From assembly GCA_017479385.1 (NCBI GenBank), contig JAFVCE010000015.1, forward strand, positions 124,001 through 188,000: 64,000 nucleotides of DNA. Direction: 5' to 3'. The position numbers and the translations under genes were made by a program. Source of the DNA: Bacteroidales bacterium. Lineage in GTDB: Bacteria > Bacteroidota > Bacteroidia > Bacteroidales > P3. Below the pieces are notes generated by a model. It did no database searches. It worked only from the letters and a program-made list of their open reading frames with translations, and had not been told where the DNA came from. Shown here piece after piece: positions 22,145-59,124 of the stretch. Position 1 is the stretch's first letter. The number at the start of each line of letters is the position of its first letter.

Positions 22145-22240
22145 ACCAACAAGCTAAGCCGCAACAATTCCCACCCACAGCGTCGTCCACCCATATCGGT
22201 AATCTCCAAAACCAACGCTACTATCCAAAAACGCCCCACG

Positions 22241-22306
22241 AAAGTCGCTCATGCGTCGCCAAAAAGTCGCTCATGCGTCGCCAGAATATTGGTCCGACGT
22301 CGCCAA
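22241..22306. repeat. 22-nt tandem repeat, three units
   Basis: Units at 22241-22262 and 22263-22284 differ only in the last base (AAAGTCGCTCATGCGTCGCC core); the third, 22285-22306, is diverged but keeps CGTCGCCAA. The period is twice 11. Confidence 0.75.
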
Positions 22307-22324
22307 AAATCGCTATCCAACCGC

Positions 22325-22407
22325 TTGAAAATCAAGCCTTATTCGACCTCAATACGACCCTAATCCCTCCTTAACACGACCCCAACCCTGATAATCAGCC
22401 AGTTACA
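22325..22407 (-). repeat. Dispersed 11-nt-unit repeat, copy B
   Basis: On the minus strand it reads GTAACTGGCTGATTATCAGG, then GGTCGTGTTAAGG, GGTCGTATTGAGG and GGCTTGATTTTCAA. Both inverted ends are recognisable. Confidence 0.8.
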
Positions 22408-22519
22408 GCCGCCAAAATCACACAAAAAAACAGCCACCACCCTCCCCAAAAAAACAAAAAGCCCCCCCCCGCACACACAAAAAAACAGTGCCGAAAAATC
22501 CATTTTTTCGGCACTCAAG
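22408..22519. other. Low-complexity A/C-rich spacer
   Basis: A/C-rich sequence including a C9 tract (22462-22470) and a short GCCGAAAAATCC / TTTTTTCGGC inverted repeat (about 22491-22513) just downstream of the tRNA-Ser gene on the minus strand, which could end that transcript. No coding frame. Confidence 0.5.
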
Positions 22520-22604
22520 CGGAAAGAGAGGGATTCGAACCCCCGGACCCTTGCAGGTCAACGGTTTTCAAGACCGCCGCGATCGACCACTCCGCCATCT
22601 TTCC
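22520..22604 (-). tRNA. tRNA-Ser (anticodon TGA)
   Basis: The 85-nt gene has acceptor arms GGAAAGA/TCTTTCC, discriminator G, a T-arm containing GGTTCGAATCC, a long variable arm typical of tRNA-Ser, and an anticodon loop CTTGAAAA with TGA. CCA is not encoded. Its promoter is at 22610-22640. Confidence 0.95.
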
Positions 22605-22609
22605 GTTTG

Positions 22610-22640
22610 CAAAGATACGTCAAATTATCGATATGGCAAA
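22610..22640 (-). promoter_or_regulatory. Promoter of tRNA-Ser
   Basis: TTTG (22640-22637), 19-nt spacer, TATCTTTG (22617-22610) on the minus strand, ending 6 nt before the tRNA. Confidence 0.7.
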
Positions 22641-22647
22641 ATTTTTT

Positions 22648-22827
22648 TTATTTCTGTTTGATTTCGTGGCATTTGCAGTTTGCGCAGCGGCCTGTGCGAG
22701 GGTCGGCGTTGACGCACGGGCGGCGAAATTCGTCGCTTTTGTGGGTCAGCATTTTCAGCCCCAGTCCGGCTATCATTGCGGCCACGGCTACGATGGCCAC
22801 TATCAGTACTACAAGCAGAGTCTTCAT
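22648..22827 (-). CDS. Small membrane protein with a cysteine tail, between two tRNA genes
   Basis: The 59-residue protein starts MKTLLVVLIVAIVAVAAMIA (one N-terminal helix) and ends with a Cys-rich tail: RRPCVNADPRTGRCANCKCHEI. The four cysteines could bind metal or form disulfides. Similar short proteins with an N-terminal helix and C-terminal CxxC-like tail occur in Bacteroidales, but I know no function. It lies 34 nt downstream of tRNA-Asn and may share its transcript. Confidence 0.65.
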   Translation of the reverse strand: MKTLLVVLIVAIVAVAAMIAGLGLKMLTHKSDEFRRPCVNADPRTGRCANCKCHEIKQK

Positions 22828-22861
22828 TATACAAAAAAACCGCGTTGTTTTCCGCGGTTTG

Positions 22862-22935
22862 CTCCCCAAGCAGGACTTGAACCTGCGACCCCCTGATTAA
22901 CAGTCAGGTGCTCTAACCAACTGAGCTATTGAGGA
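22862..22935 (-). tRNA. tRNA-Asn (anticodon GTT)
   Basis: The 74-nt gene has acceptor arms TCCTCAA/TTGGGGA (one G-T pair), D-loop AGCTCAGTTGGTTAGAGC, anticodon loop CTGTTAAT with GTT, and T-arm GCAGGTTCAAGTCCTGC. CCA is not encoded. Confidence 0.95.
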
Positions 22936-22959
22936 ATGTTTCTCTCTCGAAATCGGGTG

Positions 22960-22990
22960 CAAAATTACACACTTTTTTTGGATTAGCAAA
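22960..22990 (-). promoter_or_regulatory. Promoter of tRNA-Asn
   Basis: TTTG (22990-22987), 19-nt spacer and TAATTTTG (22967-22960) on the minus strand, 24 nt before the tRNA 5' end. Confidence 0.7.
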
Positions 22991-23036
22991 ATTTTTTTTG
23001 ATATTTTTTGAATTTTATTTTTTAACAACCAGATTA

Positions 23037-23843
23037 TCAATTGAATATATACTGCAAATTTTTAACCAAATCGCTTGCAATGAGCGACGATTGCGACTGC
23101 TTTTGGGTCGCAATATCGCCAGATTTGCCATGTAGGAACACGCCTGTTTGCGCAGCCTCGAAGGGCTCTACCCCCTGCGCGAGCAGGCCGAGGATGATTC
23201 CTGTAAGTACGTCGCCGCTGCCTGCGGTGGCCATGCCGGGGTTGCCGGTGGTGTTTGTGGCCTGCTGCCCGTCGGGGCCGAAAATGTGTGTGCGATGGCT
23301 TTTGGCAACGATTACGAGGTGGTGTTGGCGCGCCATCGCAGCAGGGTCGGCTGTGCCGAACAGGCGGCGGTATTCGCCCTCGTGGGGGGTGATGATGGTC
23401 GATTGGGGCAGGGCGTTGAGCAGGTCGGGGTGGGCGGCGCAGAGGTTGAGGGCGTCGGCGTCGAGCAGTAGTGGCAGGTCGTTTTCGGCTACAGCTTTGA
23501 GTAGTGCCGCGAGGCCTCGCGCGGTTGGGTCGGCTGTGCCCAACCCTGGGCCTGCGGCCACGGCGCTGTAGCGCCCCGGCAGGCTCGGTGGCGTGGTGAA
23601 GAGGGTGGGCGAGGGGTCGAGGCTGGTCATGGCCTCGGGCAGGGCGGTTTGGAGGATGTTGACTCCGCGCTCGGGGATGTGGACTGTTAGCAGCCCTGCG
23701 CCGGCTCGCAGGCAGGCTTCGGCGGCCAGCACGGCGCAACCCATGCGGCCGTAGCTGCCGGCCACGAGCAGGGCGTGACCGTAGTGCCACTTGTAGGTTT
23801 CGGGGTCGCGATTGGTGAGCAGTTTTCGGGTCTCGGGTTTCAT
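23037..23843 (-). CDS. nnrD: ADP-dependent (S)-NAD(P)H-hydrate dehydratase
   Basis: The 268-residue protein has the YjeF C-terminal kinase-like fold: YGHALLVAGSYGRMGCAVLA (about 21), GPGLGTADPTARG (about 98), LDADALNLCAAHPDLL, TPHEGEYRRLFG (about 147) and the signature NPGMATAGSGDVLTGIILGL (about 203). It repairs hydrated NAD(P)H using ADP. Most bacteria fuse it to the NnrE epimerase; that N-terminal domain is absent here and would have to be encoded elsewhere. Start ATG at 23843 gives a normal stand-alone length. Confidence 0.93.
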   Translation of the reverse strand: MKPETRKLLTNRDPETYKWHYGHALLVAGSYGRMGCAVLAAEACLRAGAGLLTVHIPERGVNILQTALPEAMTSLDPSPTLFTTPPSLPGRYSAVAAGPGLGTADPTARGLAALLKAVAENDLPLLLDADALNLCAAHPDLLNALPQSTIITPHEGEYRRLFGTADPAAMARQHHLVIVAKSHRTHIFGPDGQQATNTTGNPGMATAGSGDVLTGIILGLLAQGVEPFEAAQTGVFLHGKSGDIATQKQSQSSLIASDLVKNLQYIFN

Positions 23844-23868
23844 CGTGAGAGGTGATTTTTTTGTCGCT

Positions 23869-23958
23869 GTAAGTGGCTGATTATTAGGGTTGAGGAGGGG
23901 TTAAAGAGGGGTTAAGGTCGTATTGAGGTCGAATAGGGCTTGATAATCAGACGGTTAG
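23869..23958 (+). repeat. Dispersed 11-nt-unit repeat, copy C (best preserved)
   Basis: The left end GTAAGTGGCTGATTATTAGG and right end TTGATAATCAGACGGTTA are inverted relative to each other (TAASTGNCTGATTATNA against TNATAATCAGNCNGTTA). Between them run 11-nt units such as AGGGGTTAAAG, AGGGGTTAAGG, TCGTATTGAGG and TCGAATAGGGC. Five related copies occur at 6706, 22325, 40244, 49085 and 59125, always between genes. Confidence 0.8.
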
Positions 23959-23969
23959 ATACTAAATTT

Positions 23970-24012
23970 AACCCACCTCACTGTCGGTTGCTGACCGATG
24001 GTGAGGTGGGTT
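23970..24012 (-). terminator. Compound hairpin after the gingipain-family gene
   Basis: Twelve-base arms (23970-23981 and 24001-24012) enclose a second stem (TCGGT/ACCGA). It begins 19 nt past the stop of the minus-strand protease gene. Confidence 0.65.
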
Positions 24013-24031
24013 TGGCCCCTCTTTGGGGCTA

Positions 24032-26452
24032 TCAGTTTTTGAGGTTTAGTTTGACGGTGGTAGATGTTTGGGCGGTTGCAATGCGAGCGAAGTATACGCC
24101 CGAGGGGAGGTTGCTTACGTCGAAGGTTTGGCTGTCGGCCTCGGCTTGGAGGGTGAGCACGGTTTGGCCCATGACGTTGACGATGGTGATGCTGGTCATT
24201 CCTTCGGCCTCGACGGTGAAGCTGCCGCTGGCAGGGTTGGGGTAGAGGCTAACCGAGGCCTGTTGGGCGGTGGCAATGGCGTCGACAGAGACCATGAGCG
24301 TTTCGTAGCGTGGGCGGAAGCCCTGGCCGGTCGAGGTGACGTTGTAGCGGCCTGGAGCGATGGCGCTGAAGTGTAGCGTGGCGGTGCCGTAGTTGTCGGC
24401 ATAGGCGCCGCTAACCCACTGGCCGTTGTCGTCGGTGAGGCCAACATAGGCGTAGGGCTCGGTGTGGGCTACGAGGCTGGTAGAGCCGTTGGCAATCCAG
24501 CTGTCGAAATAGAGGAGCATTGTGTCGGCTTGGCTAAGCCAGGGGGTGCACGAGGGGTCGCCCTGCATACTGTAGATTTCCCAGTAGTAGATAGGGAAGT
24601 GGTAGGTGTAGCTGTAGGTTTGGCCCCAATAGGTGCCGCTCTCGGTCTGGTCGCCAAGGGTTTCGATAACCATGTTGCCGGCCACTACCATGGCGCCAGC
24701 ACAGGTGGCATACTGCTCGTAGGCCTCGTCGTGGGTGTGGAAGAGGCGGTCGTATAGGCCGAGGTTGGTGCTGTCGTAGGTTGTGTTCATGTGGCACGAA
24801 ATGTTGTCGCGTATGCCGACCGACCATTCGAAGTCTTGCTCCCACATGGTCGAGTTGGTTGCTCCAACATAGACTGCGGCGCCAGCGTTGTCGGCACGGC
24901 GCAAGAAAGCTTCGCTGAGCGATTCGGCGCAGTCGAATTTGTTGCTCAAGCAGCAGTTGCCAATGACGAATGAAGGTTTGTTGGCGTTGTTCATTGCGGC
25001 CACGTCGCTGCTTTTGAGGCTGGGGCACAGCCAGAGGTTGGTGTCGCCGTGGGCGCTGTAGTTAATCCAGCCTGCGCCGCGGCTGTAGATTTGTTTGAGG
25101 GTGGCAGCGGTGGCGTCGGGGCGCGACGAGCCGCTCACCACTATGCCGTCGGGGTGGAAAGCGGTGTCGTTTTTGTAGTAATAGACATGGCCAAAGCCGT
25201 TGTCGGCGTTGATGTAGGTTTTGGCCAGGTAGTCCATCGTCGGGTCGCAGTAGTTGTAGCCGTTGTCGTTGCGGTTAACAAAGTAGGTTTGGTCTACGCC
25301 AGCAATGAGCACGGCGGTGTCGAGATACTGTGTCGTGGGCATGGTATAGGATTCGTACATGACCGTTTTTTCGATAACGGAGCTCAGTTGCTGCTCGGTG
25401 CGGACGCTGAAGCGGCCAATATAGCAGTCGGGCAGGTTGTCGCCGTCGGTCCAGGTGGTGTAGTAGAGGTCGGTAACGTGTGGGTCGACGCCGAACGTAT
25501 CGGTTAGGTAAGCACGGCTCATGCGGCTGTCGAAGGCCGGCAGCAGGTTGTGGTCGCCTACCATGAGTATGTAGGATGGGGCGGGCTTTTCGGAGGTGGC
25601 GCCAGTGTATTGCGAGCGGAGGTAGTTGGCAATAGCGTCGGGGGTGGAACCAACCTGGCTGTCGTCGGTGTAGACCACGTCGGTCATGTAGCCCATCTTG
25701 CTTTTCCAGGCCACAAAGTTGTCGAGTTGCCCGCGGAATTGTGGGGCACTCACCACGACCATACGCACCGGACGGTCGAGCACGGGGTTCTTGGTGCCCG
25801 GCAGTTTGTTGATGGTGTTGGCAGGGCTAAAAGCAGGAGTGTTGTAGCGGCTAAAAAGCTCGTCGGTGGCTTTGGGGTCGGGGTCGCGGTAGGCAACAGT
25901 GATTTCGGCTTCGCGGCACACGATGAGGCTGTTGGTTGCCGGATTGTAGCGCACGGGTGCAATCTCGAGCACACCGAGGTTGTGGTCGCGAGCGGTGCCG
26001 ATAAAGCGCACCGTGGCCAGCTCTTGGCCCACAAAGGCGTTGGTGGCGTAACAGTTGTTGTCTATCTTCGCGGGGTGGGCTGTGGTGTCGCTCTTCAGGC
26101 GCGAAGGCTGCTGTGGGGCCACCGGTTGGGTCAGGCCCAAGGTGTAGCCGTCGATGGTGTCGTAGATGGCGTGGGCCACTGCGATGTCGGTTCCGTTGCA
26201 GAATGGCACCTCAATACGGCTAAAAGCTACTGGCAGCGCGGGTTGGCCAATGACGCCGTGAGCCACGCAGCCGTCGACCACGAGTTGGGCGTAGGTTTGT
26301 CCGTCGAGGGTGGTTTCGACCACTTTGATGTTGGGTGTGCGCAGGTGCACAGAGAGTTGATTGTAGTCGCTTTCAACCACGTTCACAATCTGTGCTTCGG
26401 CCATAGGGGCTGTGGCCAGTGCAGCGATAAGCAGTAGGATGTTTCTTTTCAT
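24032..26452 (-). CDS. Gingipain-family (peptidase C25) secreted protease with T9SS domain
   Basis: The 806-residue protein starts MKRNILLLIAALATAPMAEA (signal peptide). A propeptide of about 220 residues follows, then the C25 core: VVVSAPQFRGQLDNFVAWKS, APSYILMVGDHNLLPAF, the catalytic His in WINYSAHGDTNLW and the catalytic Cys in VIGNCCLSNKFDCAESLSEA. The C-terminal 75 residues (SVSLYPNPASGSFTVEAEG ... GVYFARI) are a type A type IX sorting signal. Cleavage specificity (Arg or Lys) is not readable. With the subtilase at 18913 it implies a proteolytic, protein-degrading lifestyle. Confidence 0.9.
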   Translation of the reverse strand: MKRNILLLIAALATAPMAEAQIVNVVESDYNQLSVHLRTPNIKVVETTLDGQTYAQLVVDGCVAHGVIGQPALPVAFSRIEVPFCNGTDIAVAHAIYDTIDGYTLGLTQPVAPQQPSRLKSDTTAHPAKIDNNCYATNAFVGQELATVRFIGTARDHNLGVLEIAPVRYNPATNSLIVCREAEITVAYRDPDPKATDELFSRYNTPAFSPANTINKLPGTKNPVLDRPVRMVVVSAPQFRGQLDNFVAWKSKMGYMTDVVYTDDSQVGSTPDAIANYLRSQYTGATSEKPAPSYILMVGDHNLLPAFDSRMSRAYLTDTFGVDPHVTDLYYTTWTDGDNLPDCYIGRFSVRTEQQLSSVIEKTVMYESYTMPTTQYLDTAVLIAGVDQTYFVNRNDNGYNYCDPTMDYLAKTYINADNGFGHVYYYKNDTAFHPDGIVVSGSSRPDATAATLKQIYSRGAGWINYSAHGDTNLWLCPSLKSSDVAAMNNANKPSFVIGNCCLSNKFDCAESLSEAFLRRADNAGAAVYVGATNSTMWEQDFEWSVGIRDNISCHMNTTYDSTNLGLYDRLFHTHDEAYEQYATCAGAMVVAGNMVIETLGDQTESGTYWGQTYSYTYHFPIYYWEIYSMQGDPSCTPWLSQADTMLLYFDSWIANGSTSLVAHTEPYAYVGLTDDNGQWVSGAYADNYGTATLHFSAIAPGRYNVTSTGQGFRPRYETLMVSVDAIATAQQASVSLYPNPASGSFTVEAEGMTSITIVNVMGQTVLTLQAEADSQTFDVSNLPSGVYFARIATAQTSTTVKLNLKN

Positions 26453-26513
26453 ATTACGATTATTTTTAGTTTCTTTTATTAATAGGCTCATTATATATTA
26501 GTGCCGCAATGTG

Positions 26514-27209
26514 TCAATTTATTGCAGCAAACATATTTTCTATTTGTGGGCAGGGGGCGGTGATGGCAATGGTGGTGTGAGCCACTGGGTGCTCGAACTC
26601 TACGCTGCGGGCATGGAGCGAGATGCTGCCGTCGGGGTTAGAGCGCGGCGCGCCGTATTTTAGGTCGCCCTTGATGGGGCAGCCCATATTGGCCAGCTGG
26701 CAGCGAATTTGGTGGTGGCGGCCGGTGTGCAGGTCGACCAAAAGCAGGTGGTAGCCCCCCTCGGAGGTGGCAAGCAGGCGGTAGTCGAGTTCGGCCAACT
26801 TGGCTTGGCGTGCGCGTGGAGTATTGGCCTCGTGGTCTACCACAAACGAGCGGTTGAGCCGTTCGTCGCGATAGAGCCAGTCGCGCAACGTGCCAGCCTC
26901 GACTGCTGGGCGGTTCTTGGTCACTGCCCAGTAGGTTTTCTTGAACTGGCGGTCTTGGATAATGGCGTTCATCCGGGCCAGTGCCTTCGAGGTTTTGGCA
27001 AAAATCACCACACCCGACACGGGCCTATCTATGCGGTGAACTACGCCACAAAAAACGTTGCCTGGCTTGGCGTCGCGCTGCTTGATGAAGAGTTTCAGCT
27101 CGTCTACCAGTGCTTGGTCGCCAGTTTTGTCGCCTTGAACCAGCTGGCCGGCCAGTTTGTTGACGACAATCAGGTGGTTGTCCTCGTACAATATCTGGTC
27201 GGCAATCAT
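26514..27209 (-). CDS. RluA-family pseudouridine synthase
   Basis: The 231-residue protein contains ILYEDNHLIVVNKLAGQLVQ (about 6-25), the catalytic motif HRIDRPVSGVVIFAKT (about 64, Asp attacks the uracil), YWAVTKNRP and TGRHHQIRCQLANMGCPI (about 172). It isomerises uridine to pseudouridine in rRNA or tRNA; there is no S4 domain, so the exact site cannot be named. The ATG at 27209 overlaps the psd stop (ATGA), showing coupling. Confidence 0.92.
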   Translation of the reverse strand: MIADQILYEDNHLIVVNKLAGQLVQGDKTGDQALVDELKLFIKQRDAKPGNVFCGVVHRIDRPVSGVVIFAKTSKALARMNAIIQDRQFKKTYWAVTKNRPAVEAGTLRDWLYRDERLNRSFVVDHEANTPRARQAKLAELDYRLLATSEGGYHLLLVDLHTGRHHQIRCQLANMGCPIKGDLKYGAPRSNPDGSISLHARSVEFEHPVAHTTIAITAPCPQIENMFAAIN

Positions 27210-50673: not shown

Positions 50674-50973
50674 ATGAAAGAAGCCATTACAGTTGGACAT
50701 CTTGCGATGTATTATATGGAACTTTTGCTTTCTATCGAGAATGAGCTACAGTATTCTTCCGATGACCCACATGGAAACAAACTCCGTCTTTTTTATAAAT
50801 TTTCAGAGAAACTTGGCTATTGTTTGCAAGTCGCGCTCAAGATTAATGTTGGAATCGCCCAAGACAAAATGCAAGATTCGCAAGAAGCTCGACGCAGATG
50901 TGAAGAGATGAAAAACAACCACCTTGCTATCGGAAAAGCCTACCAAGAGCCAACGCTTACATATCATTATTGA
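50674..50973 (+). CDS. Unknown 99-residue helical protein at the island edge
   Basis: The protein begins MKEAITVGHLAMYYMELLLS and is mostly helical and charged, with FYKFSEKLGYCLQVALKINV in the middle and EARRRCEEMKNNHLAIGKAY near the end. There is no signal peptide or known domain. It starts the AT-richer stretch that contains the defence genes and is closed by a hairpin at 50984-51002. Codon use differs from the core genes, consistent with transfer. Confidence 0.5.
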   Translation: MKEAITVGHLAMYYMELLLSIENELQYSSDDPHGNKLRLFYKFSEKLGYCLQVALKINVGIAQDKMQDSQEARRRCEEMKNNHLAIGKAYQEPTLTYHY

Positions 50974-51002: not shown

Positions 51003-51165
51003 CTTCTTTGCTCCTTCTTTGTGGGTTCTATGTAGTTCTATTCAATGGTGCGTTGCATGGGAAGTGTAATGACATTCGCGTCGGCAACGAATTGGGGGAA
51101 TCTCAGCAGTTCCCTCGCGTAAGCATATGCGGTTAGATATCGTGCACCTGCACGCACGAGGATCT

Positions 51166-51217
51166 TCTTCGTGTGTTAATATCTTTATTTGGACTCAATT
51201 GCAAAAAAGTTGTATCT
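51166..51217 (+). repeat. Left 52-bp repeat bracketing the defence block (carries a working promoter)
   Basis: This segment matches 58972-59023 at 47 of 52 positions, with the last 28 nt identical (within it, GGACTCAATTGCAAAAAAGT). Here the -7 element continues as TATCTTTG; in the right copy it is TATCTATA. Confidence 0.8.
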
Positions 51218-51220
51218 TTG
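51188..51220 (+). promoter_or_regulatory. Promoter of the membrane protein/Cas2-like pair
   Basis: TTTG (51188-51191), 21-nt spacer, TATCTTTG (51213-51220). ATG at 51239, leader about 12 nt. Confidence 0.7.
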
Positions 51221-51238
51221 CAAAAAAAATAACAACAA

Positions 51239-51505
51239 ATGAAAGAAGAAGAGATCAACGAAAATTCTCCCGAAATCAAACCAAATGAGAAAGATGGTTC
51301 TGATCCTAAAGAGAACACTCGAAGCAAGATAGCGACGCTATATTTATGGTGCTTCTTTGCTGTCATATTACTTGTGTTTATAACGGGCTGTTGTAAAGAT
51401 TTTGGAGTAGATGATTACAAAGATTTGATTTTGACTGTGTCTGGCGTTCTGACTGGTCCGCTTGGTTTTATTGTCGGTTACTATTTTAAAGCATCTAAAG
51501 AATGA
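51239..51505 (+). CDS. Two-helix membrane protein coupled to a Cas2-like protein
   Basis: The 88-residue protein has a long acidic, Lys/Asn-rich N-terminus (MKEEEINENSPEIKPNEKDG) of about 30 residues, a helix IATLYLWCFFAVILLVFITG (about 31-50) and a second, LILTVSGVLTGPLGFIVGYY (about 63-83). The last segment, with GPLGFIVGYYF, resembles the small membrane tails of phage-defence effectors and holin-like proteins, but that is a resemblance only. The stop overlaps the next start by 4 nt, so the two are translated together. Confidence 0.6.
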   Translation: MKEEEINENSPEIKPNEKDGSDPKENTRSKIATLYLWCFFAVILLVFITGCCKDFGVDDYKDLILTVSGVLTGPLGFIVGYYFKASKE

Positions 51506-51771
51506 ATACTATCATCATATCATATCGATTGGACTCAGAGGCTCCATATCAAGAATTGAGGAACCGAATTAAAAAATACCCCAATTGGGCACGATTATTT
51601 CAAGATGTATGGATTATCCAGACTCGCCATAGTGTTAGAGATGTTCGTGACGATTTAGAAAATGCCATTCGAGGCATGGGAGAGATTTTTGTAGTCAATA
51701 TTACAGGTTCAGCATGGGCCTCATATAAAATTGATAAGGAGATGGCAGAATGGATTCATGAAAACATTTAG
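51502..51771 (+). CDS. Cas2/SinR-like small protein
   Basis: The 89-residue protein reads MNTIIISYRLDSEAPYQELR, then WARLFQDVWIIQTRHSVRD (about 29), and IFVVNITGSAWASYKI near the end. It fits the ferredoxin-like SinR family related to Cas2 and VapD: strand SYxL, helix, W-x-x-QT strand, D-E-I-F-V-V strand. The Asp after the first strand that coordinates metal in Cas2 nucleases is replaced (SYRLD rather than SYDL), so nuclease activity is doubtful. No CRISPR array or other cas genes are nearby. Coupled to the membrane protein gene before it. Confidence 0.65.
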   Translation: MNTIIISYRLDSEAPYQELRNRIKKYPNWARLFQDVWIIQTRHSVRDVRDDLENAIRGMGEIFVVNITGSAWASYKIDKEMAEWIHENI

Positions 51772-51837
51772 ATACTATAAGGTTTTAATTATGACCAAAT
51801 CTTGTAGTTTATATCCAAAACGTCAGAATACCAAATC

Positions 51838-52224
51838 CTATAATTTCGAGAATATTCTCAAAATTCCTCTTACCATTGAAGCTGCATCAATCGATTTAAA
51901 CGATAATAAGTTACTTCTATTCAGTTCGACTGCAGCTCTCATTTTCTCTATTAAGCGACAGAACTCCTCCTTTGCGGTTTGAAAATCAGCAAATCTAAGA
52001 TTTATTGATGATGTCGTCTCCTGTTGTTTCATATGAGGAGAAAATACTATTTCTCCTGACTGTATCAAATAATAATCTGCATTATCTTGCATTACTTCTT
52101 TTGTACAAAAAACGAAATCTTGTTTAAATTGCGTAATTTTAATTGGGTCTTCTGTCAGATTCTTGGCTTCCTCAAATAATGAATCTAATATTTGTATTTT
52201 CTTCTTGTATGTCATATATCTCAT
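51838..52224 (-). CDS. Unknown 128-residue protein, last gene of the restriction operon
   Basis: The protein starts MRYMTYKKKIQILDSLFEEA and is helical with two short strand-like parts (DFVFCTKEVMQDNADYYLIQ, then SGEIVFSPHMKQQET). It lies 38 nt downstream of the methylase gene on the same strand and has the same low GC content. No known domain was recognised. Position suggests an accessory or immunity role for the neighbouring system, which is inference only. A second in-frame ATG lies three codons in. Confidence 0.5.
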   Translation of the reverse strand: MRYMTYKKKIQILDSLFEEAKNLTEDPIKITQFKQDFVFCTKEVMQDNADYYLIQSGEIVFSPHMKQQETTSSINLRFADFQTAKEEFCRLIEKMRAAVELNRSNLLSFKSIDAASMVRGILRIFSKL

Positions 52225-52262
52225 TGGATTATGTTCTATATGGATGACGATGGCAGAATAAA

Positions 52263-55247
52263 TTATTGTTCTATTATTGCGATTTCTTCTTTGGTGAGGT
52301 TGTAGAGTTGATAGACTAGGGTGTCTATTTCTTTTTCCAGTGATGAAATATCAGAGTTAGGATTATTTTGCTTTTTAGCGACAATCATGTCAATCAACGA
52401 CGTTATGGCTTCTTCTTGTTCAGTATTGGCCTCGGGGATAGGCAGTTGCTCTAACTCATAGATATTAACATGGTTGTTGGTGCTTGTTTTTCGGAAATAC
52501 CAATCAATAATGCGTGAGTTGATAATGGCTAATACGTATTTGTTGTTACAATTTGGGTCAAGTGCAATTTTGTTTACAGAATTACCAAACAAACACCTTT
52601 CTTTCCTGGTTAAAGAAACATTAAATCTACGTCTATCTGTCATTCCAGATATTTGCTGACACACAAGGTACGTATTCAATGTGTTCTTCATTACAATATC
52701 ATTCTTATATCCATTTTGAACATATTCCTCCACCATTTCATCGGTATAATACCTGTGTACATGACACCCTCGGTACATCTTTACATCCGTTTGTCTTGTT
52801 GAAAAGCAGAAACACTCATTGGTGAGATTGAAGTCGCCCTGAGACGACGATTGTATCATATCGCCAAGAAAGGTTGTGCCATCGTTCATTTTTTCGACGA
52901 TAGAAAAATCGTCATGTCGAATGAGAGGGAAGTAATAACCCTGTGGATAGAAATGCAGGGGTGTTTGTTGAGGAATGACTGCGAAATCGAAACTATTGAT
53001 AGTGGTTAAGTCATTGTTCGCAGACAAGAGAAATATATGATTGTTGCAAGGCATGCCCTTTGAGAAAAGGACAATACAAGTTGCCACTAATGCGCCTTTG
53101 AACAGTTGACCTTCAGGGTGTGGTGCCACCTTGGGAAATTCAATCACCTGATATAGATTCGTTTTCTTTATTAGTAATTCTCTGGTATGCTGCGATGACG
53201 AGTCACACATCAAGGAACTCTGTGTTATCAATGCACAAATACCACCATTGCTCAAAATGTTGTACGAATGCTCTACAAATAGTTTGTAAATATTCTGTTT
53301 GCCTTTATCTTTTCCTTCTGAATATGGAAACTTTAGCTTGTCAACAAGTCCCTTTTTCATCTGGAAATATGGCGGGTTACCAATGACGATATCAAATCCG
53401 CCGCGGTCGAAGATGTCTTTGAACCAAGTGTGCCAGAGGAAGAAGTCCTGGTTGGCGGAGGGGTCGAGGGTTTGCAGGCGAGCTTCGGCGGTGGGACTGA
53501 TGCCTTGCTGGAGGATATAGCTCTTGACGGTGGAGTTAATCTGTGTGCGGTATTGCACCTTCTCGTTGTGGTCGGTGAGGGAGAAGTATTTCTTGAGCAG
53601 CAGTTGCAGGTTGTGGCGGGTGTCGGCGGAGGAGAAGTCGAGGCCATACTGCGAGGCGAGGGCTTTCTTGCGGCAGCCCACCTTGCCGTCGAGTATATGG
53701 CTGAGGTCGCAGCCCTCGAAACTCTCGATGAGGCTGTTGCCTTGCATGAACTTGTAGTCGAAGTTGGGCAACGGCTCCGGTCCAGTGGCAGGGTTGCCGT
53801 CCCATTCGGCATCCACCACTATGCTGAGCCAGAAACGCAGGCGGGCGATGTCGATGGCACCGCGCTCTATGTCCACGCCGTAGATGTTGCGCTCTATTAT
53901 CTCGCGTTTGAGCGCATAGCGCGGTGTGGTGTCGCCCACCGCCTCGCGGCAACGCCACAGCTCGTTTAGCAGTCCCATGGGGAAGGCTCCGCTGCCTATG
54001 GCAGGGTCGCAGATGCGCACCTCGCGCAACGCCTCGGCCATGGTCTCACGGCAGGGCAGCAATGTTTCCGGCAATTCGTGCTGCTCCACGAAGTGGCGGA
54101 TGGCGGGGGATGCTGGTGCCGATGAAGCACCATCCAATCTGCTTTGCAGGTAGGCAATCAGGCTCTCCTTGCACATGTAGCGCACAATCTCCTTGGGTGT
54201 GTAGAAAGCACCTTTGGCCTTGTTATCCTCGAGCAGGCTTTCGAATATCTTGCCCAGCATCTCGGGGTCCACGCCCACCTCGGCATCGTCGGGGTCGTTC
54301 TCATCCACGGTGAAGTTATATGAAGCCAAGAACTCGAAGAGTTTTTCGAACAGCTCGGCAGGCAGCTGTATCTTCCGCTTGTCCACCTCGTCGCGTTCAA
54401 AGAGACCACCGTTCAGGTATGGCAATGCCTGCCATTGCCGCAGCAGCTGCATATCCCACCCCTCGCGGTGGAATAGGGCTTCGCGTTTGGCGACTTCGGT
54501 ATTGAATATGCCGAAGAATAGCGGCTCAAGCACCTGCTCGAGGAAGTCAGCCTGTCGGTCGAGGGATTGCATGAAGAAGAGGTTCTTCAAAAACTCCGGG
54601 TCGCCATCCAGCCATCCTTTCTTTTGCAGGAAGTGGAGGAAGACTATGCGGCCGAGCATCTTCTTCACGTAGTCGTGGATGACGGCGCCGTCGTACCCCT
54701 GCTGTTTCAGCTCGCTGACGATACTGTCGTAGTGGTGGTGATATTCCTTGAAGAACTCGTTGCTGAGGGCATCGACGGAGAAGGCGCGTTTGAGGTCGTC
54801 GAGGGTGAGCGTAGCGGCATCGATGCGTTGCAGACGCTCCAACGGGGTCTTATACTGCCCCTGTGGGTCGCCCAGCACGTAGGAGTAGCGTTTGGTGGCG
54901 GTGCTGCCTTCGCGCAGGTCGCAGATATAGGAAAGCCTCCAGCGGCGACCGTCGTCGAACACGGCAATGGCAGCCTCGACGTCATACTTTAAATAAGGGG
55001 CAATCAGCTTGCGCAGCCCCACGCGCTTGCGCTCCACGCTGCTGTGCGAGCGGGTGTAGAAGAAACCAATCAAACGGCCTTCGGCATCCTCGCGATCGCC
55101 GATACAGTACACCTCGTCGCCTTCGTCGGTGGTGGCGAGATGCTCGAGGCTTTCTTGCTTATTGAGGTTGGTACAGCCGAAGAGGCGGTGCACTATCTCT
55201 TCGCTGTATGTGGTATAGTTGAATGGGGCTTGGAATATCTGTTTCAT
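52263..55247 (-). CDS. Eco57I-type N6-adenine DNA methyltransferase with C-terminal recognition domain
   Basis: The 994-residue protein has a large N-terminal region (about 1-330), then GAFYTPKEIVRYMCKESLIA (about 355), SAM motif I DPAIGSGAFPMGLLNELW (about 413) and catalytic motif IV DIVIGNPPYFQ (about 620). A TaqI-like target-recognition C-terminus follows (about 640-994, with ALDPNCNNKYVLAIINSRII and YELEQLPIP). It should methylate adenine in a specific sequence. DNA for the part after NPPY is clearly AT-richer than the part before, a sign of recognition-domain exchange. It follows the helicase-nuclease gene by 8 nt. Confidence 0.88.
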   Translation of the reverse strand: MKQIFQAPFNYTTYSEEIVHRLFGCTNLNKQESLEHLATTDEGDEVYCIGDREDAEGRLIGFFYTRSHSSVERKRVGLRKLIAPYLKYDVEAAIAVFDDGRRWRLSYICDLREGSTATKRYSYVLGDPQGQYKTPLERLQRIDAATLTLDDLKRAFSVDALSNEFFKEYHHHYDSIVSELKQQGYDGAVIHDYVKKMLGRIVFLHFLQKKGWLDGDPEFLKNLFFMQSLDRQADFLEQVLEPLFFGIFNTEVAKREALFHREGWDMQLLRQWQALPYLNGGLFERDEVDKRKIQLPAELFEKLFEFLASYNFTVDENDPDDAEVGVDPEMLGKIFESLLEDNKAKGAFYTPKEIVRYMCKESLIAYLQSRLDGASSAPASPAIRHFVEQHELPETLLPCRETMAEALREVRICDPAIGSGAFPMGLLNELWRCREAVGDTTPRYALKREIIERNIYGVDIERGAIDIARLRFWLSIVVDAEWDGNPATGPEPLPNFDYKFMQGNSLIESFEGCDLSHILDGKVGCRKKALASQYGLDFSSADTRHNLQLLLKKYFSLTDHNEKVQYRTQINSTVKSYILQQGISPTAEARLQTLDPSANQDFFLWHTWFKDIFDRGGFDIVIGNPPYFQMKKGLVDKLKFPYSEGKDKGKQNIYKLFVEHSYNILSNGGICALITQSSLMCDSSSQHTRELLIKKTNLYQVIEFPKVAPHPEGQLFKGALVATCIVLFSKGMPCNNHIFLLSANNDLTTINSFDFAVIPQQTPLHFYPQGYYFPLIRHDDFSIVEKMNDGTTFLGDMIQSSSQGDFNLTNECFCFSTRQTDVKMYRGCHVHRYYTDEMVEEYVQNGYKNDIVMKNTLNTYLVCQQISGMTDRRRFNVSLTRKERCLFGNSVNKIALDPNCNNKYVLAIINSRIIDWYFRKTSTNNHVNIYELEQLPIPEANTEQEEAITSLIDMIVAKKQNNPNSDISSLEKEIDTLVYQLYNLTKEEIAIIEQ

Positions 55248-55255
55248 CTTGTTTG

Positions 55256-58200
55256 TTATTTTACAAAGGTTTCGGAAAGGATAATATCGGGTTGTGCAAT
55301 AGCGGCAGGAATGCTAGTGGCGGAACTCTTCTCCACTTGGTCAGCATAGCGTGCTGCAAGGGCTTCCAACTGCTGCACAATCGCTATTGTCGGCAGTGGC
55401 TCTTTCTTGTGCTTGCGCGAGAGGCGGTTCAGCTGGTCGGCCAGTTGGTTGAAGGTGCCATGCTCCACGAGACGTTTCAGCCGGTCGAGGGTCTGCAGAG
55501 CCTCGGCATCGTGCATCATGCCGGGGCGCACCTCGCGCAGGAAGGCGGCAGCCTTCTTGGCGTCGTTGTCGCGTCCACCTATGCGCGGACGCTCTTCGTG
55601 CTGCTCCTGCTGTTGGTCGTGGGCATACTGAGCCATCGAGCGGCGCACCTGGTCGTAGTGTGCCTCGTTGTTGTCGCCCCAGGGGGCGGCAGGCTCCGAT
55701 GGGTCGGCCTTGAGCAGGCTGACGGCATCGAGGAACGAGAGTTCGCGCACCTGCTCGCCCACGAGGTAGAAAGCCTTCTTCTGTGGCGAGGAGAGGTAGG
55801 CAAGGGTGGATGGCACGGTGGCATCATTCGGCAACTGCACCCTCCCTGCCTCTCTGGCGCAGCGGCTCTTGGCAGGCAGCTGCTTGATGCGGCGGTAGAG
55901 CGTAGGGTTGCTGTCGTGCAGGGCTTGCACCTCGCTGCGCAGGGCCAGACGGCGGTCGGTGTCGTCGGGCATATCGGAGTTGAAGAGACGGAATTCCTGA
56001 ACAATCTCGTCGTGCGAATAGATGCGCGTGTCCTCGCCGAGTGCGGAGTGGAAGCTCTGCAACTTTATGAAGGAGTTCTTCTTCAGGCTGATGATGGCAT
56101 CGCCAGGGTCGGAGGGGTAGAACATGTAGTTGTGGATGGCCTTGGCGGTGGAGCCTATGCGGTTCACGCGGCCGATGCGTTGCATCAGTCGGGTCGCGTT
56201 CCACGGACTGTCGTAGTTCACAATCATATTGGCGCGGTGCAGGTTCACGCCCTCGGCCAGCACGTCGCTGGTGATGATGATATTATAGTCGTTGCGAGGG
56301 TCTCCGTCGTATTTGGCGTCGAAGTTCTCGCGTATTGTCTGCTGCTTGCGTTTGCGGTCGCGTGCGCATACAGGCAGTATGTCGGTGCGGTGCAGCCGCC
56401 CTTGAAGTTGCTCGGTGAGGTAGTTCACCGTGTCCACACTCTCGCTGAAGACCACCAGCTTTCCGCTGGGGTTGCGCTCGGGGTCGAACAGCTCGCCTTG
56501 CAGCATCTGCACGAAGAGGTCGAGCTTCGGGTCGGCGGTGAGGGCATCCCACCGCTGGCAGAGTCCACGTAGCAGTGTGGCATCGTATTCCAGCATGGGC
56601 AGGAAGTCGGGGTTGAAGTCGGCTGCTCGGAACACAATCCCGTCGGTGTCGTAACCCTTTGTCATGGCCAACTCGATAATCTCGTCCAGCTCCAACCCGT
56701 CGGCCTGCAACTTCTTCACGTTCATGTCAGGGGCGATGATGACCTTATCCTCGTGGAACATGCGTATCATCCCTTCGGTGGCTTCGAGCAGTGTGTGGAG
56801 CGACCGCTTGAAGGCGAAGAACGAGCTCTCCAACCGTTTCACCATGTGGGTACGGTAGATGCCGGCCAGTGCTTCGGCCATGTGCTTGGCCGACTTGCCC
56901 GAAGGCACACGATATTTGGGGCAATACTCGATGGCGCGGTAGCGGGCATAGCGCAATCCGCTGCCGTCAAATTGATCCGGGTCTACCGCCTGCAAGTTGG
57001 CCGTAGGGGTGTCGATCAACTTCTTATAGGTGTCGACAAACAGCATCAACTCGCCGGGCTGCATCTGATAGGTGCGGTCTTCGGGGTCGAGCAGTTGGGG
57101 GAAGTGTATCTCGGCGGCATAGCGCGGCTCATGCTCGATATTGCTGCGCGTGCGGCGCACCATCACCTTCTCCAACACCGTGTGGCGCAGGGCGTGGTTG
57201 ATGGCATCGATGCGCTGCTGCAGTTCGGCGGGCTTCAATTGCTGCCGCTGCGACATCAAGGCGTTGTACTCCTTAATCCACGGCGCGAAGGTGTCGGCAA
57301 CGTTCTGCACCCCGTCGATGGTGCAGCGGGCGGTGTCCTGGAAGAGGAGAAGCTGGTTCTTGATGTCCTCGGGCGTGTTGTTGAAGGGGGTGGCCGAAAG
57401 TAGCAGCACGCGTTTGCCGCCACGGATATTGCCCTTGTTGACGCGGCCCGACTTGGTGATGCGTTGCAGGAGGTCGTAGTTGCCTGTGGTGTCGTGGCGG
57501 AAGTTGTGCGCCTCGTCCACTATGATGAGGTCGTAGTACGGCGGCAGGTCGTAGCCGTCGCCGTCCACGATCTTGTCGAGGCTGCCGTTGCTCACAAAAC
57601 GACTGTAGCGGTTCTTCAAATGGAAATCGTCGAAGGTCTTCACCCAGTTACGCTCGACCGACGGGGGATAGACGACGAGGATGCGGGTGCCGTCGCCATT
57701 GGCAGCCACAAATCGCTGCGCTATCATGGCGGCAATCACCGTCTTGCCGAGACCCACCACGTCGGCGATGAAGCATCCTCCGTGGCGGAGCATGATGTCG
57801 TAGCCCTGAATGACGGCATCGCGCTGATAGGTCAGGTCGTCGTAGCCATCGGGCAGCACCGGCGCGAAGTCGTCCTCCACCTGCGTGCCGAACTGGTCTA
57901 TCAGCACACGCATATACAGCTCGTATGGCGTGGGCTGATGCTCCTGCGGAGCAAGGTGAGTACGATTCACGATGCGCTGCACATCGGCCATGGTAACAGT
58001 CAACGCGTCAGCCCACAGCTGCTGGAACTGCGCCTCGCAGTAGGCCACGTCGTCGTAGTCCTTCATCGCCACGTTGAGCTCGTAGCGCGGCGGCTCGGTG
58101 GTGCCGAGGCCTTGGGCTGAGAGGTTGCTGCTGCCCATGATGACCCAGCCGTCGCTGTGCTCGGAATGTTGCTGCGGCAGGCAGAGGTAGAACTTGGCGT

Positions 58201-58594
58201 GGAGGTCGCGCGTGGGGTGTATGCGCAATTCAAGGCGACCTGCGGCAATGTCGTCGCAGAACTGGCGTATGCCTTCGTCCACCTCGCTGCTGTATTCGGC
58301 TCGGCGCACGTCGTCAAGGAACGCCTCGCAATACTGCTCTATCGATGCTTCGCGGTCTCCGAAAAACATCTTGCCGGCAGCCTGCGCCCGGCGGAAGAGG
58401 TCGTCGATATTTATGCCGACGAGGATTTTAATCTCATGCGTGCCGGCCAGCTCCTGCCGCAGGCGGAAGTAGCCGCTACTGCGGAAATAGCCCACCACGG
58501 CGTGGAACACGTCGAAATCTGCCATGGCCGACGCAATGCCATGGAACTTGTCCATCAGAGTAGCGTCGATGTTGTTGAAGAACTTGCTACTCAT
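55256..58594 (-). CDS. Phospholipase D-like nuclease fused to SNF2-type helicase
   Basis: The 1112-residue protein opens with an HKD domain: DLHAKFYLCLPQ and VIMGSSNLSAQGL (about 130-165), a single PLD half-site like that of BfiI, so it would act as a dimer. The SNF2/superfamily 2 helicase follows: QRDAVIQGYDIM, Walker A DVVGLGKTVIAA (about 280), LIIVDEAHNFRHD (about 358), LLLSATPFNNTPED (about 400), then FSESVDTVNYL (about 705) and motif VI RLMQRIGRVNRIGS (about 805). Predicted to translocate on DNA and cut unmodified targets, with the methylase next door protecting self DNA. The pairing resembles the DrmD/DrmMI part of DISARM without drmA, drmB or drmC; I cannot assign it to a named system. 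Confidence 0.85.
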   Translation of the reverse strand: MSSKFFNNIDATLMDKFHGIASAMADFDVFHAVVGYFRSSGYFRLRQELAGTHEIKILVGINIDDLFRRAQAAGKMFFGDREASIEQYCEAFLDDVRRAEYSSEVDEGIRQFCDDIAAGRLELRIHPTRDLHAKFYLCLPQQHSEHSDGWVIMGSSNLSAQGLGTTEPPRYELNVAMKDYDDVAYCEAQFQQLWADALTVTMADVQRIVNRTHLAPQEHQPTPYELYMRVLIDQFGTQVEDDFAPVLPDGYDDLTYQRDAVIQGYDIMLRHGGCFIADVVGLGKTVIAAMIAQRFVAANGDGTRILVVYPPSVERNWVKTFDDFHLKNRYSRFVSNGSLDKIVDGDGYDLPPYYDLIIVDEAHNFRHDTTGNYDLLQRITKSGRVNKGNIRGGKRVLLLSATPFNNTPEDIKNQLLLFQDTARCTIDGVQNVADTFAPWIKEYNALMSQRQQLKPAELQQRIDAINHALRHTVLEKVMVRRTRSNIEHEPRYAAEIHFPQLLDPEDRTYQMQPGELMLFVDTYKKLIDTPTANLQAVDPDQFDGSGLRYARYRAIEYCPKYRVPSGKSAKHMAEALAGIYRTHMVKRLESSFFAFKRSLHTLLEATEGMIRMFHEDKVIIAPDMNVKKLQADGLELDEIIELAMTKGYDTDGIVFRAADFNPDFLPMLEYDATLLRGLCQRWDALTADPKLDLFVQMLQGELFDPERNPSGKLVVFSESVDTVNYLTEQLQGRLHRTDILPVCARDRKRKQQTIRENFDAKYDGDPRNDYNIIITSDVLAEGVNLHRANMIVNYDSPWNATRLMQRIGRVNRIGSTAKAIHNYMFYPSDPGDAIISLKKNSFIKLQSFHSALGEDTRIYSHDEIVQEFRLFNSDMPDDTDRRLALRSEVQALHDSNPTLYRRIKQLPAKSRCAREAGRVQLPNDATVPSTLAYLSSPQKKAFYLVGEQVRELSFLDAVSLLKADPSEPAAPWGDNNEAHYDQVRRSMAQYAHDQQQEQHEERPRIGGRDNDAKKAAAFLREVRPGMMHDAEALQTLDRLKRLVEHGTFNQLADQLNRLSRKHKKEPLPTIAIVQQLEALAARYADQVEKSSATSIPAAIAQPDIILSETFVK

Positions 58595-58724
58595 AGACGG
58601 ACAATGTTTTTATGCGCCGCACGCAAAGCGCACGGCGCAGCCCCTGCGCAGACAGCCGCCTGCACAGTGAAGTTACTGACTAAAGAAAAACGATCCTTGC
58701 CGAGCCGCCCGGCGCGCCCCGACG

Positions 58725-58784
58725 CTACACCGCCACTATGCCACAGCCTCCGCTGGGGGGGGTGATTAAGAATATCTTGGACAT
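58725..58784 (-). CDS. Putative leader peptide ORF containing a C8 tract
   Basis: In the leader of the nuclease-helicase mRNA, ATG at 58784-58782 opens a 19-codon ORF (MSKIFLITPPSGGCGIVAV). Its ATG overlaps the stop of a four-codon ORF before it (MNMA, TAATG junction). The Pro-Pro codons lie in a C8 run (58755-58762 on the plus strand as G8). With nine C the frame would run without a stop for about 50 more codons and end at TGA overlapping the helicase ATG at 58594. No conservation data are available, so this is a hypothesis. Confidence 0.35.
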   Translation of the reverse strand: MSKIFLITPPSGGCGIVAV

Positions 58785-58815
58785 TATGCCATGTTCATTT
58801 GTATAATTCATGCTG

Positions 58816-58846
58816 CAAAGTTACGCTTTTTTTCGCACTTGGCAAA
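58816..58846 (-). promoter_or_regulatory. Promoter of the nuclease-helicase/methylase operon
   Basis: TTTG (58846-58843), 19-nt spacer and TAACTTTG (58823-58816) on the minus strand. Leader to the helicase ATG is about 215 nt and contains the short ORFs described at 58725. Confidence 0.75.
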
Positions 58847-58860
58847 ATATATTTCGCATT

Positions 58861-58868
58861 GGGGGGGG
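58861..58868. repeat. G8 homopolymer tract
   Basis: Eight G residues upstream of the helicase promoter on the plus strand, about 15 nt beyond the -33 element. Confidence 0.85.
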
Positions 58869-58959
58869 ATTGTTACTCGAAGCAGCCTCAATCAGAGACT
58901 TATCAATAACCGCTTAGCGTACGTATGTCCGATTATTTAATCGCACAGATGTTCATTCT

Positions 58960-58968
58960 GGGGGGGGG
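58960..58968. repeat. G9 homopolymer tract
   Basis: Nine G residues just left of the right-hand 52-bp repeat. Confidence 0.85.
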
Positions 58969-58971
58969 ATT

Positions 58972-59023
58972 TCTTCGTGTGGTGGTATCTTTAGGTGGAC
59001 TCAATTGCAAAAAAGTTGTATCT
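58972..59023 (+). repeat. Right 52-bp repeat bracketing the defence block (decayed promoter)
   Basis: Near-copy of 51166-51217. The -7 element has become TATCTATA and the downstream ORF is seven codons long, so this copy looks non-functional. Similarity to the left copy appears to extend weakly upstream (GCGTAxGxATG near 58917 and 51117). Confidence 0.8.
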
Positions 59024-59124
59024 ATAAAAAGAAGTCAAGTGTGACAGTTGTACCCTTGATAGGTTCATAGACATGAAAGAATTGGCAGATAACTAATGAG
59101 CCTCCGATTTGTCTATTGTGCTCA

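Follow-up and report, generated by a model that had tools for sequence, protein, structure and literature searches.

A probable two-gene ATP-dependent restriction-modification system in Bacteroidales, combining a PLD-SNF2 protein with a methylase whose specificity half appears exchangeable

Introduction

A stretch of 64,000 nucleotides (nt) from a Bacteroidales bacterium (assembly GCA_017479385.1, contig JAFVCE010000015.1, positions 124,001 to 188,000 of the forward strand; hereafter the window, numbered from its first letter) carries a gene for a phospholipase D (PLD) nuclease fused to an SNF2 helicase, next to a gene for an Eco57I-type methylase and three small open reading frames (ORFs). 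The question raised by this locus is which of these genes belong together, and what they could do to DNA. The original prediction placed all five in one compact island, with a minimal translocating restriction system at its core and perhaps a membrane/Cas2-like pair as a second line. Comparison with related genomes indicates a smaller unit of two genes, the PLD-SNF2 protein (R) and the methylase (M). We consider it quite probable that they form an ATP-dependent restriction-modification (R-M) system in which M is a mosaic with an exchangeable C-half and R has no site reader of its own; certain relatives carry inverted cassettes, and the window has a fixed copy. The host genome comprises 2.28 Mb in 24 contigs, and the six nearest named relatives found are metagenome-assembled genomes of Bacteroidales, most of them with a ruminant-host label.

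The features of the pair are as follows.

55256..58594, minus strand: PLD-SNF2 protein (R), 1112 amino acids (aa), from the ORF and Pfam
Domains of R: single HxK...GSxN PLD nuclease, about residues 1-206; SNF2/SF2 translocase, about 247-832; then a C-terminal extension
52263..55247, minus strand: Eco57I-type methylase (M), 994 aa, after an 8-nt gap behind R
53367..55247, minus strand: N-half of M, residues 1-627, with the N-terminal region, the S-adenosylmethionine (SAM) motif DPAIGSGAF and GNPPY; guanine-plus-cytosine content (GC) 57.5%
52263..53366, minus strand: C-half of M, residues 628-994, with the remaining methylase fold and a TaqI_C-type target recognition domain; predicted exchangeable cassette; GC 37.7%

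In Pfam, R matched one PLDc_2 stretch, SNF2 and Helicase_C, and M matched Eco57I and TaqI_C (the latter with 36.8 bits against a cut-off of 26.5). The ORF coordinates and the Pfam matches bore out all five ORFs as first described, with their sizes, strands, the 8-nt gap and a 4-nt overlap between two of the small genes.

Occurrence of the gene pair and its catalytic residues

Matches to R were found in 55 of the 190 genomes of the family (E <= 1e-30). Forty places found with R and 25 found with a methylase query (24 of them usable) were fetched, picked mainly by score and length from among the matches. The loci compared were 45 drawn by R, 24 by a related methylase, L089, L090, L091, L103 and the window, which after removal of two duplicate contigs makes 72. 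The duplicates, L061 (on the contig of L012) and L071 (on that of L014), were dropped from the locus counts and from the poly-C, pair-identity, census and GC analyses, and were retained as rows in the clade-identity and conservation alignments where long enough. The short loci L013 and L015-L044 stood outside the censuses, L100 (a 3.8-kb contig) was uncounted, and L063 with its short C-half was left out of the pair-identity comparison.

Both R and M were present in 69 of the 72 loci, always on the same strand with R upstream (69/69). The gap between them was at most 40 nt in 40 loci, 41-1000 nt in 18 and more than 1000 nt in 11, the wider gaps often containing an inserted ORF, which in L089 is a Schlafen/AlbA_2 protein. 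Two of the three loci with no recognised pair stop at a contig border (L084, L128), and the third, L075, has an ORF in that place which was not recognised as M. When the methylase was the query, R lay upstream in 23 of the 24 loci, directly or with one gene between. Named records of Prevotella nigrescens and Parabacteroides likewise show R followed by an N-6 methylase. Only R and M co-occur elsewhere, and the unit is thus made up of these two genes. In this form the proposed minimal restriction system gained support: a translocating protein that is nuclease and helicase at once, with an adenine-type methylase as partner.

Gene content varies in the deeper branches. L089, L091, L126, L127 and similar loci have an additional gene that precedes the pair or separates its members (a Schlafen/AlbA_2 gene in L089 and L091, the two scanned), and often an extra downstream gene of about 600-690 aa, which in L089 looks ATPase-like by eye. 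Outside the census, the Enterococcus and Lactococcus plasmids L096 and L097 show a different association, in which R is accompanied by a methylase, a DEAD/DEAH helicase and one extra ORF; in the Lactococcus plasmid L097 this ORF is DUF4391.

The predicted catalytic residues are kept throughout. In a 42-row alignment of R, the PLD residues H132, K134, N157 and E172, the Walker A lysine, the DEAH box and motif VI were each at least 97% conserved, as were the SAM motif and NPPY in 39 rows of M (each alignment contains a duplicate contig or two). In other families of the order, HxK...GSxN was likewise kept by each of the 23 R proteins longer than 700 aa. No solved structure matched the PLD domain in a sequence search. 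The pair is clearly more than a chance arrangement: R has matches in 55 of the 190 family genomes, and its catalytic residues are near-invariant.

If M carried a nuclease of its own, R could be an accessory to a self-sufficient Type IIG enzyme. A presumed homologue of M, Pin17FIII of Prevotella intermedia, is so assigned in the available text of PMC5608340, the best PADLOC models for M are Type IIG restriction endonuclease-methyltransferases (E 3.5e-77), and residues 195-283 weakly match the MmeI spacer (E 0.15). In addition, E35, D44, K74, D110 and K119 are invariant in the seven proteins closest to M, among many other invariant residues, so that acidic residues and lysines are kept in that part of the family. 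However, no D, E or K before D286 reaches 97% conservation in the 39 rows, and thus no PD-(D/E)XK centre is common to the M family. On residue conservation a family-wide N-terminal nuclease in M may be absent, which speaks against a Type IIG-like PD-(D/E)XK enzyme, though the residues kept in the seven closest proteins weigh on the other side. A Type IIG enzyme would also have no separate helicase or restriction subunit, whereas R stands beside M in 69 of the 72 loci. We regard Type IIG action of M with R as accessory as unlikely.

Mosaic structure of the methylase

The chief finding is that M is a composite of two parts. The original prediction had not noted this. In a clade of 22 rows (one contig twice), the mean identity of R was about 80% along its length (57-95% per 50 residues), and that of M about 76% up to residue 625 (50-97% per 25 residues). 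There the identity of M falls in one step, from 94% in residues 601-625 to 27% in 626-650. Beyond that it ranges over 15-38% as far as residue 975, and it is 51% in the last 19 residues. The step coincides with GNPPY, which ends at residue 627. Among the 190 pairs formed by 20 loci, R had a minimum identity of 62% and a median of 76%, and the N-half of M a median of 67%. The C-halves of the same loci fell into 14 types at 60% identity; 7 of the 190 pairs reached this threshold over the full length, and 39 had no BLAST match.

Similar C-halves were found joined to dissimilar N-halves. The C-half in the window is 78% identical to that of L012/L061, with N-halves at 63%. A silent C-half of P. nigrescens is 71% identical to that of L058 from the genus of the window, with N-halves at 38% and R at 34%. 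Between L083 and L081 the C-halves are 57% identical, the N-halves 28% and the R proteins 31%. Close relatives such as L048 and L051 share all parts, in line with expectation. Base composition changes at the same point: in the window the GC of the M gene drops at GNPPY from 57.5% to 37.7%, and at third codon positions (GC3) from 0.77 to 0.41. The N-half exceeded the C-half in GC by more than five points in 29 of 31 relatives, the exceptions being L072 and L078. Judged by these comparisons, the C-half of M is a travelling specificity cassette, usually low in GC, which is joined at GNPPY to a conserved N-half. Because R is conserved while the C-half is hypervariable, R is unlikely to be the site reader, and specificity would lie in M. 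R thus probably reads no site itself, as in Type I and Type III systems and unlike Type II.

Inverted cassettes and a serine invertase in relatives

In 6 of the 69 loci (L053, L072, L090, L103, L106 and L111), inverted repeats join M to silent, inverted C-half or target recognition segments next to a serine invertase of one family. All six invertases contain a resolvase domain. The repeat is 25 nt and perfect in L053, which is from the genus of the window, 71 nt (86%) in L072, 37 nt (97%) in L106 and 314 nt (95%) in L111. L090, from P. nigrescens, has a 47-nt repeat (96%) over the NPPY codons and a perfect one of 18 nt, and L103 has repeats of 101-111 nt (95-100%) and an M that is itself also split in frame. 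TaqI_C was above cut-off in the cassettes of L053, L103 and L111 and in one of the two cassettes each of L090 and L106; the other cassette in each aligned with the Eco57I profile in its second half only. When the repeat-bounded segment of L053 was inverted on paper, both frames stayed open, giving an M of 1043 aa and a silent ORF of 279 aa. The contigs of L073 and L080 end less than 100 nt from sequence 92-96% identical to the L053 repeat. At least 3 kb of downstream sequence was available in 51 of the 69 loci and only six have cassettes, so that they are a minority feature. An extra same-strand C-half stretch in L112 was read as a split M and not as a cassette.

The same association was approached from the invertase in 60 genomes of one genus, that of G472; over residues 6-571 the M of G472 and its P. 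nigrescens counterpart share 81% identity. Seven invertase places were found in six of these genomes. Four lie beside C-half sequence (L106, L142 with a 235-aa piece containing TaqI_C, L143 and L144), and in the other three (L140, L141, L145) the contig ends 77-141 nt 3' of the invertase, where the cassette would begin. No clear counter-example was seen in the 60 genomes. Inverted cassettes beside an invertase are consistent with programmed specificity switching in some of the relatives.

Three circular records of P. nigrescens DSM 13386 described as plasmids, NZ_CP133466, NZ_CP133467 and NZ_CP133468 (L132, L130 and L131; 2630, 2697 and 2697 bp), match segments of L090 at 100% identity, and their ends fall within the L090 repeats. 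They seem to have arisen during assembly from alternative states of the locus and not to be plasmids, which would imply mixed orientations. Small assembly plasmids should thus be treated with caution, as they can be pieces of an R-M locus.

The copy in the window is the fixed version, with no cassette and no invertase: no extra C-half was found between positions 44001 and 64000 or in its own genome, and the window had no match to the invertase. If switching were the main purpose, the system might be chiefly a phase-variable epigenetic regulator (a phasevarion) and not a defence. The cassettes and invertase of several lineages fit such a role, as do the three related N6-methyladenine (m6A) motifs reported from one P. 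intermedia strain in the part of PMC5608340 available. However, a large nuclease-translocase is kept beside M nearly everywhere and the window copy has no cassette, and we regard a mainly regulatory role as very unlikely.

Several motifs from one system

The cassettes may bear on an observation on P. intermedia 17F, taken here from the available text of PMC5608340. In this strain a methylase gene (22231-25584) with a SNF2/RAD54-family helicase upstream is followed by a second gene on the opposite strand (25608-26525), and the m6A motifs GGNYAG, CCNYAG and GGYGAB are found. In Escherichia coli the first gene gave GGYGAB, the second gave nothing, and both together gave GGYGAB only. Rikenella microfusus has a homologous system with three related motifs. 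The authors suggested that the combined genes, perhaps with the helicase, make the remaining motifs (PMC5608340). The layout of these genes, Pin17FIII and Pin17FORF9595, resembles that of L053 and L111: an upstream helicase, a long m6A methylase and an oppositely oriented ORF, 24 nt downstream, which encodes about 305 aa and is inactive alone. In the text available, the two are treated as two Type IIG enzymes and the second ORF is not read as a silent cassette (PMC5608340). A silent inverted specificity cassette may explain how the genes are arranged and why the second one is inactive, on a kinship drawn from the wording and coordinates of the paper. One spare cassette would allow two motifs, and a third needs another cassette or another recombination point.

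Comparison with known systems

The best PADLOC model for R is C3a139, 'HKD+Snf2' (E 1.4e-34, residues 118-829), an entry that consists of a name alone and gives no paired methylase or cassette. This kind of helicase is thus catalogued; the two-gene form with an Eco57I-type methylase was not described in the open-licence literature searched. Of the outcome named beforehand as fatal to the original prediction, a well-catalogued methylase-helicase type with flanking small genes that never accompany it, about half therefore applies. The same holds for an Eco57I/PLD-SNF2 shufflon, half-gene cassettes and the invertase, for which no description was found in that literature (most subscription papers and REBASE being beyond reach).

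The separation from DISARM made in the original prediction held. DrmD models scored far below cut-off (NF038317, 140 against 610 bits; NF038318, 73 against 950), and PF09369/MZB, which we take to be the mark of DrmB, had no match in the host genome (the control matched 8 of 14). DrmA and DrmC were absent from the five ORFs, with no genome-wide search made for them. Membership of BREX or of the Type-2 BREX-related systems was rejected as well: DUF499 (PF04465) was found in none of 40 genomes tested of the 55 with R (completeness was 90% or more for 28 of them; the control matched 1 of 14), and the only PglZ match in the host genome lies some 66 kb off, in a 540-aa frame of its own.

These results also bear on exclusion of the BREX or DISARM kind, in which phage DNA would be blocked without cutting and the methylase would serve as self mark and sensor. 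In profile comparison M does align with the BrxX structure 9ewz, and R aligns with models of DrmD and BrxH. Against this, PF09369 is absent from the genome, PglZ is distant, DUF499 is missing from the genomes tested, and the PLD residues are near-invariant. We judge exclusion without cutting to be improbable, slightly more so than a Type IIG enzyme with R as accessory.

Several described systems share parts of the pair. The Type-2 BREX-related systems have an HKD nuclease N-terminal to a Swi2/Snf2 helicase, an N6-methylase and a proposed R-M-like logic, and the available text describes them with a DUF499 ATPase and DUF3780 (PMC12839542); DUF499 was absent here from the 40 genomes, and DUF3780 was not searched for. 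The archaeal COG1743 - DUF499 - SWI2/SNF2-nuclease operons share a SWI2/SNF2 protein fused to a PLD or PD-(D/E)XK nuclease together with a methylase, and differ, as far as the text available goes, by DUF499 and the COG1743 methylase (PMC7641849). SauUSI, a Type IV enzyme, likewise joins an N-terminal PLD nuclease and an ATPase/helicase in one ATP-requiring polypeptide, but it has its own SRA reader for modified cytosine, and the portion of the paper at hand mentions no methylase partner (PMC12707154). The CxC/Pbe systems are also reported as HKD-helicase-type fusions in the text available (PMC10853773).

In Type ISP, Type I and Type III R-M systems, restriction is driven by a motor and steered by the methylase or by a specificity subunit. 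The pair studied here resembles a split enzyme of this kind, as judged by analogy: the target recognition domain is predicted on the methylase, and an SF2 translocase is linked to a putative nuclease. It differs in having a PLD-type nuclease and no HsdS, and in that R and M are two distinct polypeptides, with specificity predicted to lie in the C-half of M. Specificity switching is described for Type I systems, through inversion of hsdS, in the available parts of PMC5903667 and PMC3090145.

Proposed mechanism and points against it

In the R-M system that we favour, M would read an asymmetric site of about six bases through the TaqI_C-type domain of its C-half, and it would mark adenine, as its fold and the cloned motif of its presumed homologue suggest. 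We infer that at an unmethylated site M contacts R and recruits or licenses it, after which R would translocate on the DNA and cut with its PLD nuclease, probably as a dimer. The likely trigger, by analogy with Type I, III and ISP enzymes, would be the collision of two motors. In some relatives the invertase would in addition flip C-half cassettes in vivo.

With less assurance, though still leaning in its favour, we propose that these genes represent a distinct class of ATP-dependent R-M system. Its PLD-SNF2 cutter would take its target from a methylase whose entire portion behind GNPPY is a travelling cassette, usually low in GC. Lineages would exchange this cassette, and in several Bacteroidales a dedicated serine invertase would turn it around in place. 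This would give several specificities per cell line and would explain the three related motifs found in P. intermedia 17F and probably the ones in R. microfusus.

Several observations weigh against this account. No restriction or defence assay of the pair was found in the literature searched. The residues invariant in the N-terminus of the seven closest M proteins have been named above, and the invertase-linked cassettes are a minority (6/69). One extra cassette predicts two motifs, against the three of 17F, and the kinship of Pin17FIII is drawn from a published description. The silent segment of L072 contains an in-frame stop, the cassette pieces in L143 and L144 are short (112-141 aa), and L143 has no inverted repeat of at least 24 nt, which counts against a uniform anatomy. 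Split frames occur in R (L014, L060, L070) and in M (L052, L056, L103, L112); they may reflect decay, phase variation or assembly error. In distant relatives from Allomeiothermus, Thermus, Meiothermus and Thermococcus, outside the census, the annotated methylase is upstream of R.

A phage origin of the pair was considered and rejected. A tblastn search of phages gave three records, none covering 80%, and a single IMG/VR contig was found, L103, in which R, M, a cassette, the invertase and a Mob_Pre relaxase stand together. This contig is probably a mobilizable element and not a virus.

Neighbouring genes and flanking sequence

The remaining features of the segment are the following.

51838..52224, minus strand: p128, ORF of 128 aa, function unassigned; probably unrelated cargo
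51239..51505, plus strand: TM88, ORF of 88 aa with two hydrophobic segments, convergent with R-M-p128; probably unrelated cargo
51502..51771, plus strand: Cas2/SinR-like ORF of 89 aa, overlapping TM88 by 4 nt; a small gene found in phages and plasmids too
51165..51227, plus strand: left copy, lying upstream of TM88, of a 63-nt direct repeat whose core is promoter-like
58971..59033, plus strand: right copy of the 63-nt direct repeat, 86% identical to the left copy
58755..58968: three C8-9 tracts (coding strand), which precede the PLD-SNF2 gene by 168, 274 and 374 nt

The three small ORFs had no Pfam match. For p128 there was also none in PADLOC or NCBIfam, the best PHROG match was non-significant (E 0.076), and among the 190 family genomes it was present in its own only. 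The Cas2-like ORF resembles phrog_1090 (9e-18), several of its staphylococcal phage relatives carry a Cas2 annotation, and the family occurs also in plasmids; no link to R-M was seen in the two phage regions viewed, and 3 of the 190 genomes have the protein, its own included. TM88, whose two helices were judged by eye from the sequence, weakly resembles phrog_20796 (6.5e-7) and had no match in the phage tblastn search, a genome-wide search for it not having been made. Scans of viral contigs for M, the Cas2-like ORF and p128 gave no lead.

A five-gene unit, with the membrane/Cas2-like pair as back-up, would agree with the adjacency of the genes, with the 63-nt direct repeat around the segment and with the GC of the small ORFs (0.31-0.37), which is low like that of the C-half of M. 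However, the 9-kb surroundings of R in the 45 other loci showed no homologue of p128, TM88 or the Cas2-like ORF, the rarity of p128 and the Cas2-like protein in the family is as given above, and the Cas2-like family is found in phages and plasmids in other settings. The gene order predicted for the island therefore recurs as far as R and M are concerned, and p128 and the TM88/Cas2-like pair do not travel along. Most likely the three ORFs are unrelated cargo, and a five-gene system with a membrane-linked second line is extremely unlikely.

The 63-nt repeat brackets the entire five-gene segment, its copies nearly coinciding with the borders first drawn for the island (51166-59023), although the original prediction does not speak of a repeat. 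Only these two long copies exist in the genome, the 40 other matches being shorter, and recombination between them could delete the segment. The C8-9 tracts, about 100 nt apart upstream of R, make control by slippage possible; among the loci with a start of R, in which 700 nt upstream were checked, the window alone has them, and 756 kb of loci contain only eight such tracts. Left of the segment, at 50674-50973, is a 99-aa ORF with no Pfam match. Its homologues (31% and 61% identity) lie downstream of M in 2 of the 45 other loci, L067 and L068. The AbgT and PHP genes flanking the pair in the window are on different contigs in the relatives compared by eye, and hence no empty-site comparison was available. 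In L073 a distant R-M pair stands beside an AbgT gene that is 72% identical to the one in the window, possibly an insertion hotspot.

Implications

It seems that a vague catalogue entry, 'HKD+Snf2', can be turned into a defined two-gene system with a proposed division of labour and a located specificity. The account is testable where several related m6A motifs arise from single systems in Prevotella and Rikenella. Programmed specificity switching would thereby gain a further setting beyond hsdS, and the half-gene cassettes of this family would be a natural set of interchangeable target readers.

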